Origin: Encephalitozoon hellem ATCC 50504
Lineage: Eukaryota; Microsporidia; Unikaryonidae
DNA: 64,000 nucleotides
Direction: 5' to 3'
NCBI RefSeq assembly: GCF_000277815.2
Contig: NC_018474.1
Location: 1 to 64,000, forward strand
The position numbers were made by a program, and so were the translations under genes. The number at the start of each line of letters is the position of its first letter. The first letter of the stretch is position 1. The notes under the pieces were generated by a model. That model was not told the origin of the DNA and ran no database searches. It saw nothing but the letters and a program-made list of their open reading frames with translations. Below are positions 50,214 through 57,747 of this stretch, one piece after another.

Positions 50214-50457
50214 AGTCTTGAGATCATGAAAATCGCAGCTTAAATAGTTTTTTCTGCTCTTACAATGTTTTGGATCTACCAATGATTCGTTCCGCAGTGC
50301 CTGAAACATTCTTCAGATTCATCCATCCATCTTCTTGGTGTATATTGCTTGATGATCCAGGAAGGATGTAAACCATGCGACCCGGCGTCTTATATCATCA
50401 GATTTCATAAAATTGCCTGGCTTGTGGATTTTATATTTGGAAATTAAGGCCCTTGAA

Positions 50458-51351
50458 ATGGTAGTACAGGAGAAAAAATCCAATCTCCCTCCAAAAGGAT
50501 TAAAGAATAAGGGAAATACTTGTTTCTTCAATTCTGCAATGCAGTGTATTTTGTCCATTAGCGAGCTTAACGCCTTTTATCGGGACACCCTTTTTCCAAG
50601 GGAGAAGAAGATATCTAATGCATTCAAACAATTTATACTTGAGTATGAAGATTCGGCACAGTCCTGTGACCCAAGAAACCTCATCAGCGTATTTAACACA
50701 AAGATGAAGCTGTTCAATGGGATGCAGCAGGACTCTCACGAGTTTCTTATTCAGTTTATCGATTTGCTGTATACAGAGTTTGATTGGAATAAAGATGTGT
50801 TTACAACAATAGATGAATTTGAGGAAGCCCGGAAGCAGAATCTGATTGCAAAAACATTACTTTCAATGGATAGACAGATACTAATATGCGAGATGTGTAA
50901 ATACTCTTCTACAACAATTGTCACGAATAGTACCATTCTTATTGAACCCTATGCATCAGTTCAGGAAGGAATAGATCGGTATTACGAAGAGGTGATGCTT
51001 GAGGGAGAAGATAGCTGGAAATGCGATAAATGTGGAAAGAAGAAGGGCACTATAAAGAGGATGGAAAACCTTATACATCCAGAAGTCCTGATAGTGCATA
51101 TATCAAGATTCCATCCACGAGGATCAAAAGACACGGCAAGTGTCGACATTAGCGCCACTTTGTCTTTTAACAATAGAAAGTACAGCCTCTTCGGGGTTGT
51201 GTGCCACACCGGAACTCTGAGTGGGGGACACTACTTTGCAGAGGCCAAAAGGTCAGGTACATGGAGGATCTACAACGATGAACAAGTGACAAAAGGCTTC
51301 AAGGGCTACAATGGATCACATCCCTACATGGCTTTCTACACTCTTTGGTAG
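50458..51351 (+). CDS. Ubiquitin-specific protease (USP, C19)
   Basis: A compact 297-aa deubiquitinase. The Cys box KGLKNKGNTCFFNSAMQ holds nucleophile Cys22, QQDSHEFL is the QQD box, a zinc-binding pair is CEMCK…CDKCG, and the His box is TGTLSGGHYFAEAK, with WRIYND carrying the third catalytic residue. 'NTCFFN' resembles the USP16/USP45 group, but insertions and a ZnF-UBP domain are absent, so no orthologue is named. The frame opens at TTG 50413; ATG 50458 follows GGCCC. Confidence 0.9.
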   Translation: MVVQEKKSNLPPKGLKNKGNTCFFNSAMQCILSISELNAFYRDTLFPREKKISNAFKQFILEYEDSAQSCDPRNLISVFNTKMKLFNGMQQDSHEFLIQFIDLLYTEFDWNKDVFTTIDEFEEARKQNLIAKTLLSMDRQILICEMCKYSSTTIVTNSTILIEPYASVQEGIDRYYEEVMLEGEDSWKCDKCGKKKGTIKRMENLIHPEVLIVHISRFHPRGSKDTASVDISATLSFNNRKYSLFGVVCHTGTLSGGHYFAEAKRSGTWRIYNDEQVTKGFKGYNGSHPYMAFYTLW

Positions 51352-52393: not shown

Positions 52394-53311
52394 TCAAAGG
52401 TTTCCATTCCTCCCAATAAATGCATTTCTTATCCTATTACTCTGCTTCTCTCCCAAAGGCCTAGAATGCTTTCCATCAATGTCCCAGACCCTGAGCTCCT
52501 TCAACAATCCGCTACTTTCTCCTTTAAGAAACGAGTGCAACTGGCTGATGCTTTTGAAGTGAAGAGATAAGCTTCGTGCCGCATTCTTACCTATTCCCGG
52601 GATGTTCTGCAAGACATTCTGAAGGTGATCAGTCTTCTGCTCCACAGAAAAAGTCTTCGTCTTGGGAACATGGATGCTCCTTGAATGGAGGTGCTTTATG
52701 ATAGCCTTCAGCTCTCCAGGCAGGTCTTGAGGATCGTCGACAAACACAAAGTTCCTGCCGTTCTTAATTTGCTCAAGATAGATTTTTTCTGACTTGATTT
52801 CATATGAGCTCTTCCCTCTGACGTATCTTTTTCCCTCCTCCAACGCCTTTCTGTACTCCTTGTCTTCCCTTGCCTTTACCGCACTTCGGTATCTGTTTCT
52901 GTTCACCACAAGAGAAGTATTATTGTTGCACGCCCCGGCCTCGTCTTTTTCAAAGTCAAGGACATCCAGAGCATATACTGTTTCGTGATCCTTGCATCTA
53001 ACTACCTTTAAATCCTTGCCTTCAGAAAACTTATAGACAAACCTCTTGTCTTTTATTCTGCCCACAAACTCCTCTAGTGCTTGTGGAAAGACAAAATAAT
53101 GATCTGCAAACACAGGGTCGATACATTCCGGAAACAAACTCCAGCATACCTCTTTTGAAGTCGCTTTTGGTTGTGTGCCGTTGGATATAGAATATGGAAT
53201 GTCAAGAATTGTAATGGAGCTGTCGGTATCAAGAATGTTCCCACTGGGATTCTCATTCCCCCCGTTGTTTCTTTCTAGGCTCTCCATAAAGTTTGCATAA
53301 TGGCTATTCAT
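52394..53311 (-). CDS. Helix-hairpin-helix protein, possible XPF/MUS81-superfamily
   Basis: A 305-aa protein with a C-terminal tandem HhH region (~230-300): LQNIPGIGKNAARSLSLHFKSISQLHSFL, then LGEKQSNRIRNAF, resembling the HhH2 domain of XPF, ERCC1, Mus81 and Eme1 family proteins. The middle (YVRGKSSYEIKSEKIYLEQIKNGRNFVFVDDPQDL) could be a degenerate ERCC4-type nuclease fold, but no catalytic ERKxxxD is seen. That would suit a non-catalytic partner such as Eme1 or FAAP24. Identity is tentative. CAGGGCC precedes the ATG. It is tandem with the BRCA2-like gene. Confidence 0.5.
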   Translation of the reverse strand: MNSHYANFMESLERNNGGNENPSGNILDTDSSITILDIPYSISNGTQPKATSKEVCWSLFPECIDPVFADHYFVFPQALEEFVGRIKDKRFVYKFSEGKDLKVVRCKDHETVYALDVLDFEKDEAGACNNNTSLVVNRNRYRSAVKAREDKEYRKALEEGKRYVRGKSSYEIKSEKIYLEQIKNGRNFVFVDDPQDLPGELKAIIKHLHSRSIHVPKTKTFSVEQKTDHLQNVLQNIPGIGKNAARSLSLHFKSISQLHSFLKGESSGLLKELRVWDIDGKHSRPLGEKQSNRIRNAFIGRNGNL

Positions 53312-53359: not shown

Positions 53360-54820
53360 TTATACAAGAAGCTTAACATATCCTCTTCTGCTGGTGTTGA
53401 GGTGGAGCTCTTTGGTCTTTGCTGGATTCAAATAAACCATTCTTATCACCTGTCCTGCTTTGGCATCTGATGAGGGATTCCACCATGTCACCGTGCATTC
53501 TCCACTGCTGTCTTTGATAAGGAGCTTGGTGTACATACTAATTCTTATGTCATGGGACGAAAATACCCTCTGGGCCTTTCTTGCAAGATCCTCTATCTTA
53601 TCAAGCTCGGGCTCAAGATTCTCAGTCGTACTACTGTAATTTTCTACCTTTACTAGATATTTTGTCTCAATTATCTTGGAAATCATCCCTTCGATGCAGC
53701 TCACCGGCCCCCCATTGCTGTGAATATCAGATATCTTCATTCTAAAGCCCACCCTCTTTCTGTATCCAAGCCTCCGTCTGCAATGGATAACCTGGGTCCC
53801 ATTGCCGTGAAGCCTCAAGAAGGCACTTCCAAGGTCAAAGATGGAAACAGCACCATTTCCTTCAAGCTCCGCACCAAAGATCTTGAGCTTGGCACCAACA
53901 CGTATTTCGTTTTTTTCTATCTTTCTTCTGAGAACCTCATCATATAACGCATAAAGGCTATAATATCCATCAAATACCTCAATCTTCTCCTTGTCCACGC
54001 CAACCACCAAAAGAATCATATATCTCCACGACACCTCGTCCCCCTCAACAATCCTACGGAGTATGGAATACTCGTTCTCTAACCTCATTTTGACCTGCTC
54101 TTCTATTTTATCTACAAAATCATTGAATTCTAATTGTCTGCCTCCAAAGCGGAGGTAAATCCAAGACCATGTGAACTGGGCAAAGACCCTGTTTGAATCT
54201 TCTTTCGTAAACCTTCTTTCTATCTCTCTGTAGACACTCTCAGGACTTATGCACTCTTTTTCTTCCGGAGTACTATAAGATCTTGGCGTCTCTTGTGTAT
54301 CGGCATCTACTTTTTCCATCGTACCATCAAACATCTTATATGCTGTGTCTATGCTTTCTTTTCTAACCTGGATCTTCTTTCTAGATCCTGTGGTAAACCC
54401 AGAAAACACTGTGTCCGGATCTTCATCTCCCAAGTCTGTATGTCTTACATGCAGTTTGTCCGAATCAAGAGGCAAGCATCTTCGAGGAGAGCTTTCCGGT
54501 CGATTTTGGTCGGCATTCAATCTGCCATATCCCTGGACTATACCCACGTCCTCACATCCTTCCTCCTCGGGATTCTCTCTAATCCTCGACGAGTCAGAGT
54601 TGAAGTCATAGAACATCTGATCTCCTTGCTCTAGGGAGCCACACGAGTCCTCCTCTCCCATTCCATTATCCTTATGGCAAGCATTGTCAGAGCTAAAAAA
54701 CGCAGCCTCGTCGCAGCTCATCAGAATTGAGTCAAACCCGCTCGAGCAGTCCTCGGCATCCTTGCTATCACTGCTGCTTTGGAAGAAGCTCTCAAATTCA
54801 AACTCAGAGTCTCCTTCCAT
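53360..54820 (-). CDS. BRCA2: BRCA2/Brh2-like recombination mediator, minimal form
   Basis: A 486-aa homologue of BRCA2, the Rad51 loader of homologous recombination. An acidic disordered N-terminus precedes one BRC-like repeat at ~141-166 (GFTTGSRKKIQVRKESIDTA…MFDG; consensus F-TASGK…S---L). Residues ~205-275 match the BRCA2 helical domain (FAQFTWSWIYLRFGGRQ). OB1 follows (IEVFDGYYSLYALYD, GAKLKIFGAELEG). OB2 closes the protein (TVTWWNPSSDAKAG, then YLNPAKTKELHLNT, like the 'IWRPSSD…L-tsK----L' of human BRCA2). The tower and OB3 are absent. The frame opens at TTG 54868; ATG 54820 is the start. Confidence 0.82.
   Translation of the reverse strand: MEGDSEFEFESFFQSSSDSKDAEDCSSGFDSILMSCDEAAFFSSDNACHKDNGMGEEDSCGSLEQGDQMFYDFNSDSSRIRENPEEEGCEDVGIVQGYGRLNADQNRPESSPRRCLPLDSDKLHVRHTDLGDEDPDTVFSGFTTGSRKKIQVRKESIDTAYKMFDGTMEKVDADTQETPRSYSTPEEKECISPESVYREIERRFTKEDSNRVFAQFTWSWIYLRFGGRQLEFNDFVDKIEEQVKMRLENEYSILRRIVEGDEVSWRYMILLVVGVDKEKIEVFDGYYSLYALYDEVLRRKIEKNEIRVGAKLKIFGAELEGNGAVSIFDLGSAFLRLHGNGTQVIHCRRRLGYRKRVGFRMKISDIHSNGGPVSCIEGMISKIIETKYLVKVENYSSTTENLEPELDKIEDLARKAQRVFSSHDIRISMYTKLLIKDSSGECTVTWWNPSSDAKAGQVIRMVYLNPAKTKELHLNTSRRGYVKLLV
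54323..54400 (-). other. Single BRC-type Rad51-binding repeat
   Basis: 26 codons within the BRCA2-like gene. They match the BRC consensus at G-F-x-T-x-S, K-K-I-x-V, K-E-S-I-D and the closing M-F-D. The FxxA position is Gly instead of Ala, and the Gly of 'SGK' is Arg. No second copy is seen in the protein. Confidence 0.75.
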
Positions 54821-54869: not shown

Positions 54870-57560
54870 TTATTCTGTTCTCAGACCAAACAAATTGTCT
54901 CTATCGTTGTTCAACAGGAACCAAATGGTTTTAAAGAAGTTTTCCGGGAGAATAAGAGACTTGCTTGACTTGGCTGTGTTCGGGTCGTTGTAATAAGACT
55001 CCTTCTCTATCTCCTTTGAATCCTTGATCCCAAGCTCAGTCAGTGGAAGGACATCAATGTCCGGCCCAGATCCCATTTCAGACCAACTCTCGAGAAGACT
55101 AACCCTCTCCACAAGGGCTTTCTCTGTAAATGCATCCAGATACTCTTCCTCCTTGATGTTGAGCGGATAAAAGTGGCAGGACTTGTAGAACATCTTCCTA
55201 AGGCTGCTGCGGAATATAAATGTGATAAGGATAATCGGGAATAGCAGCATGGACAGATAAAACCTCTTGTCCGAAGACATTTTTGCAAACGTTGCAATTT
55301 GAAAAAATATGAGTGAAAACATTATGTTCTGGCATGCAGAATCCCAATATCCGCCTCCAGACTCATACTCATTTCTGGAAGAATACAGAAACTCAGTTTT
55401 GAACGCTAGGTAGTTGCAGAAGTAGAAGAATGCCCCAAGAAGGAGGATGGGGGGACAGATGACAGTATAGACTATGGACATCGAGAAGACTGTCAGGCAG
55501 GATGGAAATATGGTCCCGAAGTCAAACGGGGGAGAAAACTCGGCATCGAGCCTCTCTCTTCTTGTCTTTCTCCCTGTAAACGGAAAGATAATGTAGTTTA
55601 TCAACAGAGGCGCAGGCTTCAATAGCGTTAGTGCTGTTCCCACCAGGGTTCTTTGGATGATCGTGTTCGCAAAGAACACGGACGATTCCAGAGACTCGTT
55701 GCTGAATGCCCTAATGACATTGTATATCTTTTCGTTCTTGAACAAAACATCCGCAAAAAGCCTGTAGAAGCTCGATGCAAAGAACACAGATACAAAACCG
55801 TTGAAGAACAGGAAGTTGGAAAGCTTGTCCATCAGCTTCTGCTGGAAAGTCGAGTATGAGTAGATGCCCTCCATATTAACAAGTGCAGTTATGATTGTTG
55901 GAACGAACACCATCATGGAGTTGTATATAAGTGGAAACAGAATTCCCCGCAGAGAGCTTTTGATTGTTTCATGTCTATCTAAAAATGAGGATATCAGCCT
56001 GTTCTCCTTAAACATCTCCGAGCTCAGTAGTAAAGTGACAATATTGGCAACTATGGATGAGAACAGTACAATAAAGAGTATGAAGAACACAGTTCCAAAG
56101 ACGCTATACATGTAGTTATCCACCTCGCTGTTTGTTATGTTTTCCCATATGACATCGTTCGGTGCCGGTGCATCCTCCGTTGCTACAGAAAATATCCTTG
56201 ACCCTATTTGCGACTGCTTCACTATGTTTGCGCTTCTTTGGTCTTTGAACGTGACAAACCCTCTTTTTGTCTTCGAAGGAAGATCTAAAGTAAAATACAT
56301 TTTGTACTTGCCGTAGTTGAGTATATGGTGAAATGAAAAGAAGCTAGCATCTTGCGATATGTCTCCCCTCAGAAAGAGAGTGTTGTTGTGAGAGACAAGC
56401 TCTACGATCCTGATGTCCTTGTTCTTTGCCTCCTCGTTCCTTATAACCTCTTTTTCCTTGCTGATCCTTCTATTCACATTGTTTAGCTTTTCCAGATAGA
56501 AATTCACCCTCGGGATATCCTCCTTAATCTTGTTTTCAAACTGGTTGGCTCCATTAAGGAATAGGACAATAAGCTGTCTCTTTTGGGTATTGTCAAAGAC
56601 GCCCTCTATTTTTGCTTCCTCCACCGTCCTCAGGATATTTTCTCTGAACCCGCTTATACTTTTTTTGCACTTCTCTTGATTCTTTTCAGACCATTCCTTC
56701 ATTCTTACAAACTTTTCGTTAATTTCCTTCTCAATGTGGTAAATATAGCTGTCCTTCTCACTGTAAAGGCTTTGCAAGGTGTTGGTATCATACACAAGCA
56801 CACAATCATCAATCTCTCCAACACCAAGGGAGTTGATGAACTCAAAAAGATCCACATCGTTGTTCACGTAGCTTGGGAGCCTTGAGAGGACCAGTGTTCT
56901 GTTCGGGAGATTCACATATTCCGTAGACTTCTCTGCACTTCCGAGGTTGTTGGACAACTTCTTCAAGGTTATTATTGACGTCATTATTGCTGGATTCCGT
57001 AGATATGCTTGCCTAAGAACAATGTACCTCTTGTAGTATATGAAAATGGAATACATTATGAATGCAGACACAAGGTACACGACAGGTATAATGAGCCCAT
57101 AGCTCCTAGACTCGGGGTCCAGACTTCCCAGCGAGAGCCTGACAAGCCATTGATCCGAGTTTTCTATATTTTCCCGCTGGTTCGTCCAAAATAAGTATCC
57201 CAGCGACGGAATGACCAAGAACGACAGAATAAAGAGAATTCTGTAAAGCATCTTCAGTGTCTGCAGCATCATGAATGCATCCAAGCCTATGATCGACAGA
57301 AGGATCGTGTCGCTCACAGTCACAACCGGAATGATCCAACTAAGAAACCCTGCGTAATTGTAGCAGGGATGTGACGGCCTATCCTTGACATTTGGCGAAT
57401 AGAGCCATGCTGCTCTTTTTCTGAAAATAATATACGCTATTAGGATGCAAAATGTGACGAGCCCTTGGGACACGATGTTTGTTAGCACAGCATTGTCTGC
57501 ACCCCTCAGTGGAGGCTTTTCGACCCTGGTTCCTATGTTTTCCTTGTCTATGTCAGCCAT
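54870..57560 (-). CDS. CSC1: OSCA/CSC1/TMEM63-type mechanosensitive cation channel
   Basis: An 896-aa multi-pass membrane protein of the calcium-permeable stress-gated channel family (DUF221). The order is: N-terminal transmembrane helices with LVTFCILIAYIIFRKRAAWLYSP and the RSN1-like 'GLDAFMMLQTLKMLYRILF'; a cytosolic RNA-recognition-like domain with coiled coil (~260-460: NRTLVLSRLPSYVNNDVDLFEF, KTKRGFVTFKDQRSANIVKQ); then a large C-terminal pore region (~500-830). It would sense osmotic or membrane tension. The ATG at 57560 follows CCGGGG; the open frame extends 34 codons further without support. Confidence 0.9.
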   Translation of the reverse strand: MADIDKENIGTRVEKPPLRGADNAVLTNIVSQGLVTFCILIAYIIFRKRAAWLYSPNVKDRPSHPCYNYAGFLSWIIPVVTVSDTILLSIIGLDAFMMLQTLKMLYRILFILSFLVIPSLGYLFWTNQRENIENSDQWLVRLSLGSLDPESRSYGLIIPVVYLVSAFIMYSIFIYYKRYIVLRQAYLRNPAIMTSIITLKKLSNNLGSAEKSTEYVNLPNRTLVLSRLPSYVNNDVDLFEFINSLGVGEIDDCVLVYDTNTLQSLYSEKDSYIYHIEKEINEKFVRMKEWSEKNQEKCKKSISGFRENILRTVEEAKIEGVFDNTQKRQLIVLFLNGANQFENKIKEDIPRVNFYLEKLNNVNRRISKEKEVIRNEEAKNKDIRIVELVSHNNTLFLRGDISQDASFFSFHHILNYGKYKMYFTLDLPSKTKRGFVTFKDQRSANIVKQSQIGSRIFSVATEDAPAPNDVIWENITNSEVDNYMYSVFGTVFFILFIVLFSSIVANIVTLLLSSEMFKENRLISSFLDRHETIKSSLRGILFPLIYNSMMVFVPTIITALVNMEGIYSYSTFQQKLMDKLSNFLFFNGFVSVFFASSFYRLFADVLFKNEKIYNVIRAFSNESLESSVFFANTIIQRTLVGTALTLLKPAPLLINYIIFPFTGRKTRRERLDAEFSPPFDFGTIFPSCLTVFSMSIVYTVICPPILLLGAFFYFCNYLAFKTEFLYSSRNEYESGGGYWDSACQNIMFSLIFFQIATFAKMSSDKRFYLSMLLFPIILITFIFRSSLRKMFYKSCHFYPLNIKEEEYLDAFTEKALVERVSLLESWSEMGSGPDIDVLPLTELGIKDSKEIEKESYYNDPNTAKSSKSLILPENFFKTIWFLLNNDRDNLFGLRTE

Positions 57561-57747
57561 CCCCGGTTGGGGACTAAAAATTTTATCTTTGTAACCACCA
57601 ACCAAAACACATGTATATGCAGCCTCCAGTGAAAGATGCTTTATTAAGGAGAGGATTCTCAACCACTTAGATGATATGCATGCTGGCAGGGATAAAGAAA
57701 TAAGGTGCCTCGATCAGTTTAATTTTCAGAGGGCTTGGGGGTAAAGA

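Follow-up and report, generated by a model that had tools for sequence, protein, structure and literature searches.

What is the minimal set of parts with which a BRCA2 protein can still be expected to load Rad51? This question is raised by an open reading frame of Encephalitozoon hellem ATCC 50504, a microsporidian (tiny, fungus-like) parasite, located at positions 53360..54820 (minus strand, stop codon included) of the window analysed here, a stretch of 64,000 nucleotides comprising positions 1 to 64,000 of contig NC_018474.1. Its product of 486 amino acids carries a single BRC motif and ends after its second OB fold. We consider it very probable that this protein is a BRCA2 orthologue trimmed by genome reduction, and that it would most likely act as a Rad51 loader.

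The identification rests on domain content, domain order and conservation, all read directly from sequences and models. An acidic, disordered N-terminal tail (residues 1-137; 54410..54820, minus strand, as are all features of the gene), with a net charge of -26 and a predicted local distance difference test score (pLDDT) of 25-32 by blocks to residue 130, leads into the BRC motif (residues 138-166; 54323..54409), which matches the Pfam BRC model (PF00634, E 3.8e-8) and aligns with BRC4 of 1n0w. In the AlphaFold model, DSSP assigns this region a hairpin and a helix (strands 137-143 and 149-153, helix 154-164), with block pLDDT values of 67, 75 and 80 over residues 131-160 and 55 over residues 161-170. 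A remnant of the BRCA2 helical domain follows (residues 189-258; 54047..54256), recognised by a family profile against 1mje/1miu and by the fold of the model, which matches 1iyj from residue 2522 onwards; by both profile and fold, its end directly precedes OB1 (residues 252-354; 53759..54067; PF09103, E 4.7e-18), which is matched in all 24 proteins of the first family alignment. OB2 (residues 359-486; 53363..53746; block pLDDT 86-97) forms the extreme C terminus, the profile alignment reaching 1mje position 489 and the fold match 1iyj residue 2967; many single OB folds match OB2 of the model as well. At the point where rodent BRCA2 enters its tower, DSSP of the model and the alignment to 1mje place a 14-residue helix (residues 402-415; 53576..53617), and in both sequence and model the protein ends after OB2 with OB3 and tower missing. 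Rodent BRCA2 is the best PDB match both by sequence profile and by fold. The alternative of an RPA- or telomere-type protein with OB folds whose BRC-like motif arose by chance can hardly be entertained, being ruled out in practice by the order BRC, helical domain, OB1, OB2.

A preliminary description of this locus, made from the sequence alone, had proposed a BRCA2 with one BRC repeat and an OB1-OB2 core lacking OB3 and tower; Pfam, profile and fold comparisons and 24 relatives all uphold this identity, and the predicted OB folds do match those of rodent BRCA2. The domain profile searches that it had suggested succeeded in part: BRC and OB1 were found with Pfam, and the helical remnant and OB2 by profile or fold, but the Pfam models of the helical domain (PF09169) and OB2, like those of OB3 and the tower, found nothing in the E. 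hellem protein at E<=10. Helical domain, OB2, OB3, tower and DSS1_SEM1 are likewise missing from the 19 Pfam families matched by the 24 alignment members. PF09169 found nothing in the whole E. hellem genome, where its control also matched nowhere, and NCBIfam returned nothing near any cut-off for the E. hellem BRCA2 or two neighbouring proteins. The helical remnant comprises about 70 residues vs 187 positions in PF09169; we treat this short domain as a reduction and not as a ground for exclusion from BRCA2. Nor do OB3 and the tower define the whole BRCA2 family, since fungal BRCA2s as a rule lack OB3 too.

The relatives indicate how general this build is. A sequence search supplied 23, which with the E. 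hellem protein make up the 24 rows of the first alignment (A1), and an alignment-based search (A2) for wider relatives added P0146 only, perhaps because its search words are drawn from the beginning of the alignment's first row; the full family thus comprises 25 proteins. The Pfam BRC model matches 14 of the 24 A1 proteins at E<=10, and a motif search finds a single GFxT[AG] in 24 of 25 family members, the sole protein without one being P0023 (314 amino acids), whose start falls past the motif's place. From an invariant W.W to the C terminus, every one of the 25 measures 268-283 residues and, because this length is nearly constant, the tower-less, OB3-less build appears to be a family trait. 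Organism names accompany nine of the 24 relatives, eight of them microsporidia (three Encephalitozoon, two Ordospora, Nosema, Astathelohania and Nucleospora), and the other 15, judged by their similarity, are probably microsporidian as well. The ninth named relative, P0011, is recorded as an 'integral membrane protein' of the snail Biomphalaria pfeifferi, and is most likely a microsporidian contaminant of the snail's assembly. Database names of orthologues include 'BRCA2 OB1 domain-containing' (UniRef) and 'putative BRCA2 domain-containing protein' (Ordospora pajunii), with BRCA2-like names also on those of Nosema granulosis and Astathelohania contejeani. The named microsporidian orthologues share the build of the E. 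hellem protein and differ in nothing of substance, except that A. contejeani has FKTA and not FxxG. As a separate observation, eight of the 25 proteins (P0015, P0019-P0024 and P0146) carry a motif R[SRM][YF]..P..GH between BRC and helical remnant, possibly a second binding motif, which is absent from the Encephalitozoon proteins.

The BRC motif itself also shows changes. The tetrad of FxxA type in the E. hellem protein is FTTG (residues 142-145; 54386..54397), with Gly at the Ala position. The preliminary description had rightly noted this Gly, but it is no peculiar defect of the E. hellem gene: Gly stands there in 22 of the 24 family motifs, E. hellem included, and Ala is kept in two, P0013 and P0020 (A. 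contejeani). These motifs were counted with GFxT[AG]; a looser expression gives the same 24 plus two GFYS stretches (P0011, P0023), which were rejected as BRC motifs because the A1 alignment places them inside OB1. None of the 24 fits the BRC pattern Fx[ST][AG]xG (Lo 2003, as quoted in excerpts of PMC10684384), as the place of the turn Gly, Phe+5, is taken by N, R, K, M, L or Q; matches to that pattern at P0011 157 and P0018 341 lie away from the BRC motif and were discounted as chance. Since the fungal pattern is already relaxed (Fx[ST]xxG, FxxV, in the same excerpts) and the Pfam BRC model matches, the family motif is best regarded as a variant, not as grounds for exclusion. FxxG itself has precedents in fungal BRCA2, where it occurs alongside FxxA (PMC10684384, excerpts), and in Leishmania BRC2 and some archaeal RadA proteins (PMC9162458). 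The exchange of Ala for Gly costs about six-fold in a tetrapeptide (FHTG 1590 vs FHTA 280 µM; PMC4855620) and three-fold in Leishmania BRC1, and Ala put into Leishmania BRC2 brought no substantial gain in affinity (PMC9162458). Because the exchange lowers affinity modestly in these systems, weaker Rad51 binding through the Gly-bearing BRC is plausible by analogy, which does not mean that binding is lost.

The presumed partner is encoded in the same genome, in which a Rad51 family search gave at least one match (PF08423, E 9.9e-132); for E. cuniculi, one Rad51 paralogue is listed in the part of PMC3170485 consulted. The self-association motif of E. hellem Rad51 is FTTA, and Ala is kept there in all 17 named microsporidian Rad51s (E. 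hellem included; assigned by genus name) and in 118 of 121 rows overall, these rows being the query and the best 120 of 6806 matches and hence not a random sample. The Phe-pocket residues listed in PMC4855620 (M158, I160, A192, L203 and M210) are all unchanged in E. hellem Rad51. Nearby positions have shifted: in human numbering, 16 of the 17 named microsporidian proteins have Ser190 (Edhazardia has Ala) and 12 have Ile189, whereas the 17 named non-microsporidian rows (two from one snail) have Ala190 throughout and Val189 in 15. Paramicrosporidium, a near outgroup that was counted separately, has Ile189 and Ala190. Ser190 and Ile189 do not simply follow the BRC Gly, because A. contejeani combines FxxA in its BRC with both. 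FxxG is paired with S168 of Rad51 in E. hellem, in Ordospora colligata (a parasite of Daphnia) and in N. granulosis, and FxxA with P168 in A. contejeani, but these four named species are too few for testing a coupling.

From these observations we infer a loading mechanism, of which binding, loading, relative affinities, the role of the tail and independence from Dss1 are all deduced. The single BRC hairpin would capture one Rad51 subunit, FTTG occupying the FxxA site with a weak contribution from an MFDG tail, while the helical remnant and OB1-OB2 would hold single-stranded DNA. Rad51 would then be passed to the growing filament, in which binding through FTTA is expected to win over binding through FTTG; because Rad51's own motif keeps Ala vs Gly in the BRC, the filament contact should be the stronger, favouring hand-over. 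The acidic tail may contact RPA. With no tower, there would be no sensing of single-/double-strand junctions of the kind proposed in tower models.

Several observations weigh against this reading. Foldseek template modelling (TM) scores against rodent BRCA2, at 0.45-0.49 by model length, are moderate, partly owing to disorder in one third of the model. OB3, which in rodents holds single-stranded DNA together with OB2, is missing. The LFDE-like second BRC tetrad is a weak MFDG in E. hellem (residues 163-166), and is poorly conserved outside Encephalitozoon. The apparent lack of Dss1 comes from searches that had no positive control: the Dss1 Pfam model found nothing in the E. hellem genome, a result weak on its own because its control also matched nowhere. 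Finally, the genome encodes Rad52 (L005, G000:C9:105025-105468, minus strand; E 2.2e-59, with a second Rad52 match below the cut-off), such that two kinds of Rad51 mediator coexist in 2.25 Mb and Rad52 could be the main one. Pressed further, the presence of Rad52, the degenerate second half of the BRC motif in several relatives and the weakening effect of Gly in other systems would suggest a decaying relic that has kept DNA binding and ceded Rad51 loading to Rad52. We judge this improbable: the open reading frame is intact, the BRC motif is retained in all but one family member and the C-terminal length is nearly constant, which together argue for selection on the protein. Rad52 may share the loading work.

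How such a BRCA2 would manage the apparent lack of Dss1 is a further question. Scanning the E. hellem genome with two codon patterns that describe W[DE]..W cores revealed no Dss1, and the pattern [DE][DE]F[DE][DE]FP with one mismatch gave two matches, the same number as the reversed control. Neither of these two looks like Dss1: L003 forms the end of a 258-residue open reading frame, and L004 lies within one of 468 residues, in a different frame by coordinate arithmetic. Independently, PMC8615682 reports, likewise from sequence searches for a short acidic protein, that Rpn15/Sem1 (Dss1) is lacking in all microsporidia examined there, together with Rpn3; Rpn3 is the proteasome partner of Dss1 (PMC8394001, excerpts). 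The Dss1 site of BRCA2 is, by sequence, nevertheless partly kept across the family. Three columns never vary among the 24 rows, those corresponding to human W2626, E2663 and D2723, and two more, R2659 and G2748, are conserved in 23 of the 24. In rodents, these five residues are in contact with DSS1 or next to it, and mutating them is detrimental to DSS1 binding by the human protein (PMC8191791). From the same mutation list, the T2722 column is F or Y, and the I2627 column S, V, A, T or C. At the column of K2630, mutation of which impairs DSS1 binding in human constructs (PMC8394001, excerpts), every one of the 24 rows carries I, L, M or V. The kept residues could serve a structural purpose, or the site might be occupied by a different acidic partner.

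One such partner might be the protein's own tail, replacing a lost Dss1 in cis on the helical remnant and OB1. The largely kept contact columns and the failure of genome searches to find Dss1, in agreement with the excerpts of PMC8615682, would fit, as would the tails, which are acidic in all 23 A1 rows having one (net -8 to -44), some with acidic F..F patterns. However, of the 24 tailed proteins only P0016 and P0018, which are related to each other, exceed shuffled sequences in these patterns (p 0.008, uncorrected), the other 22 showing no such excess; in two AlphaFold models the tail docks nowhere (block pLDDT 25-41); DSS1_SEM1 is unmatched in all 24 A1 members; the K2630 column has lost its Lys throughout; and the invariant residues may merely hold the interface of helical domain and OB1. 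Tail substitution is thus unlikely. The broader proposal, in which microsporidia lost Dss1 wholly, BRCA2 became a Dss1-free loader with its acidic tail in cis, and BRC (FxTG[SN], no turn Gly) and Rad51 pocket (Ser190, often Ile189) changed together, is equally doubtful; if true, tower and OB3 would be dispensable for loading in nature. A trimmed BRCA2 orthologue that probably works without Dss1 is what we retain.

The gene is flanked by others on the same strand. The next gene, 48 bases downstream (52394-53311), encodes a protein of 305 amino acids whose C-terminal part weakly matches helix-hairpin-helix models (HHH_2, E 0.067; UvrC, E 0.56; FAAP24, E 0.99), and may be another DNA-repair protein. 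Upstream, 54870-57569 encodes a membrane protein resembling calcium channels or transporters (RSN1_7TM, E 5e-52); the E. romaleae orthologue of BRCA2, P0003, is named 'putative integral membrane protein', a name that has perhaps slipped from this neighbour. Further away, on the plus strand, an open reading frame at 50413-51351 resembles by eye a ubiquitin C-terminal hydrolase, with no NCBIfam match over 50461-51348.

What, then, is new? The E. hellem BRCA2 is tower-less and apparently Dss1-free, with a shifted BRC signature. It resembles a natural version of 1mje, a tower-deleted BRCA2 construct. At 486 amino acids, it should be easier to produce whole than human BRCA2, and Gly in BRC vs Ala in the Rad51 motif offers a simple, testable idea for how a single BRC releases Rad51. 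Within the literature searched, three features are possibly new: the turn Gly missing from all 24 motifs, the tower missing throughout, and several invariant Dss1-site residues in the absence of a findable Dss1. Such a BRCA2 would separate the folding role of Dss1 from its loading role, and be a useful natural test case if it works without a partner regarded as essential in mammals and fungi (PMC10684384 and PMC8394001, excerpts). The excerpts of the microsporidia papers searched (PMC13174016, PMC3170485, PMC11061109, PMC13022661) contain no description of an E. hellem BRCA2. Single BRC, OB3 loss, FxxG and small size are all known from other BRCA2s. Contrary to the preliminary description, the layout is therefore not unusual for BRCA2 at large, given that fungal BRCA2s generally lack OB3, a minimal BRCA2 is known in C. 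elegans BRC-2 (PMC8683258, excerpts) and the 24 relatives have a like DNA-binding end, 23 of them with one BRC motif.

Among known systems, the mammalian BRCA2 DNA-binding domain with DSS1 (1MIU, 1MJE, 1IYJ) differs in having eight BRC repeats, a full helical domain, tower, OB3 and DSS1. The basidiomycete BRCA2/Brh2 proteins (Ustilago, Naganishia, Cryptococcus), as described in excerpts of PMC10684384, share with the E. hellem protein one to three BRC repeats, a helical-OB1-OB2 arrangement without OB3, and FxxA/FxxG tetrads. However, they are about 854-1193 amino acids long vs 486, they have a Dss1 partner and a tower (the latter shown for Naganishia by model), and their BRC candidates GFxTxxGK keep the Gly that is found in none of the 24 motifs of the E. 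hellem family. C. elegans BRC-2 is likewise small, with one BRC, and is a RAD-51 loader for which no key role of DSS-1 was seen; it differs in having one OB fold and a TR2 region, whereas the E. hellem protein has two OB folds and ends at OB2 (PMC8683258, excerpts).
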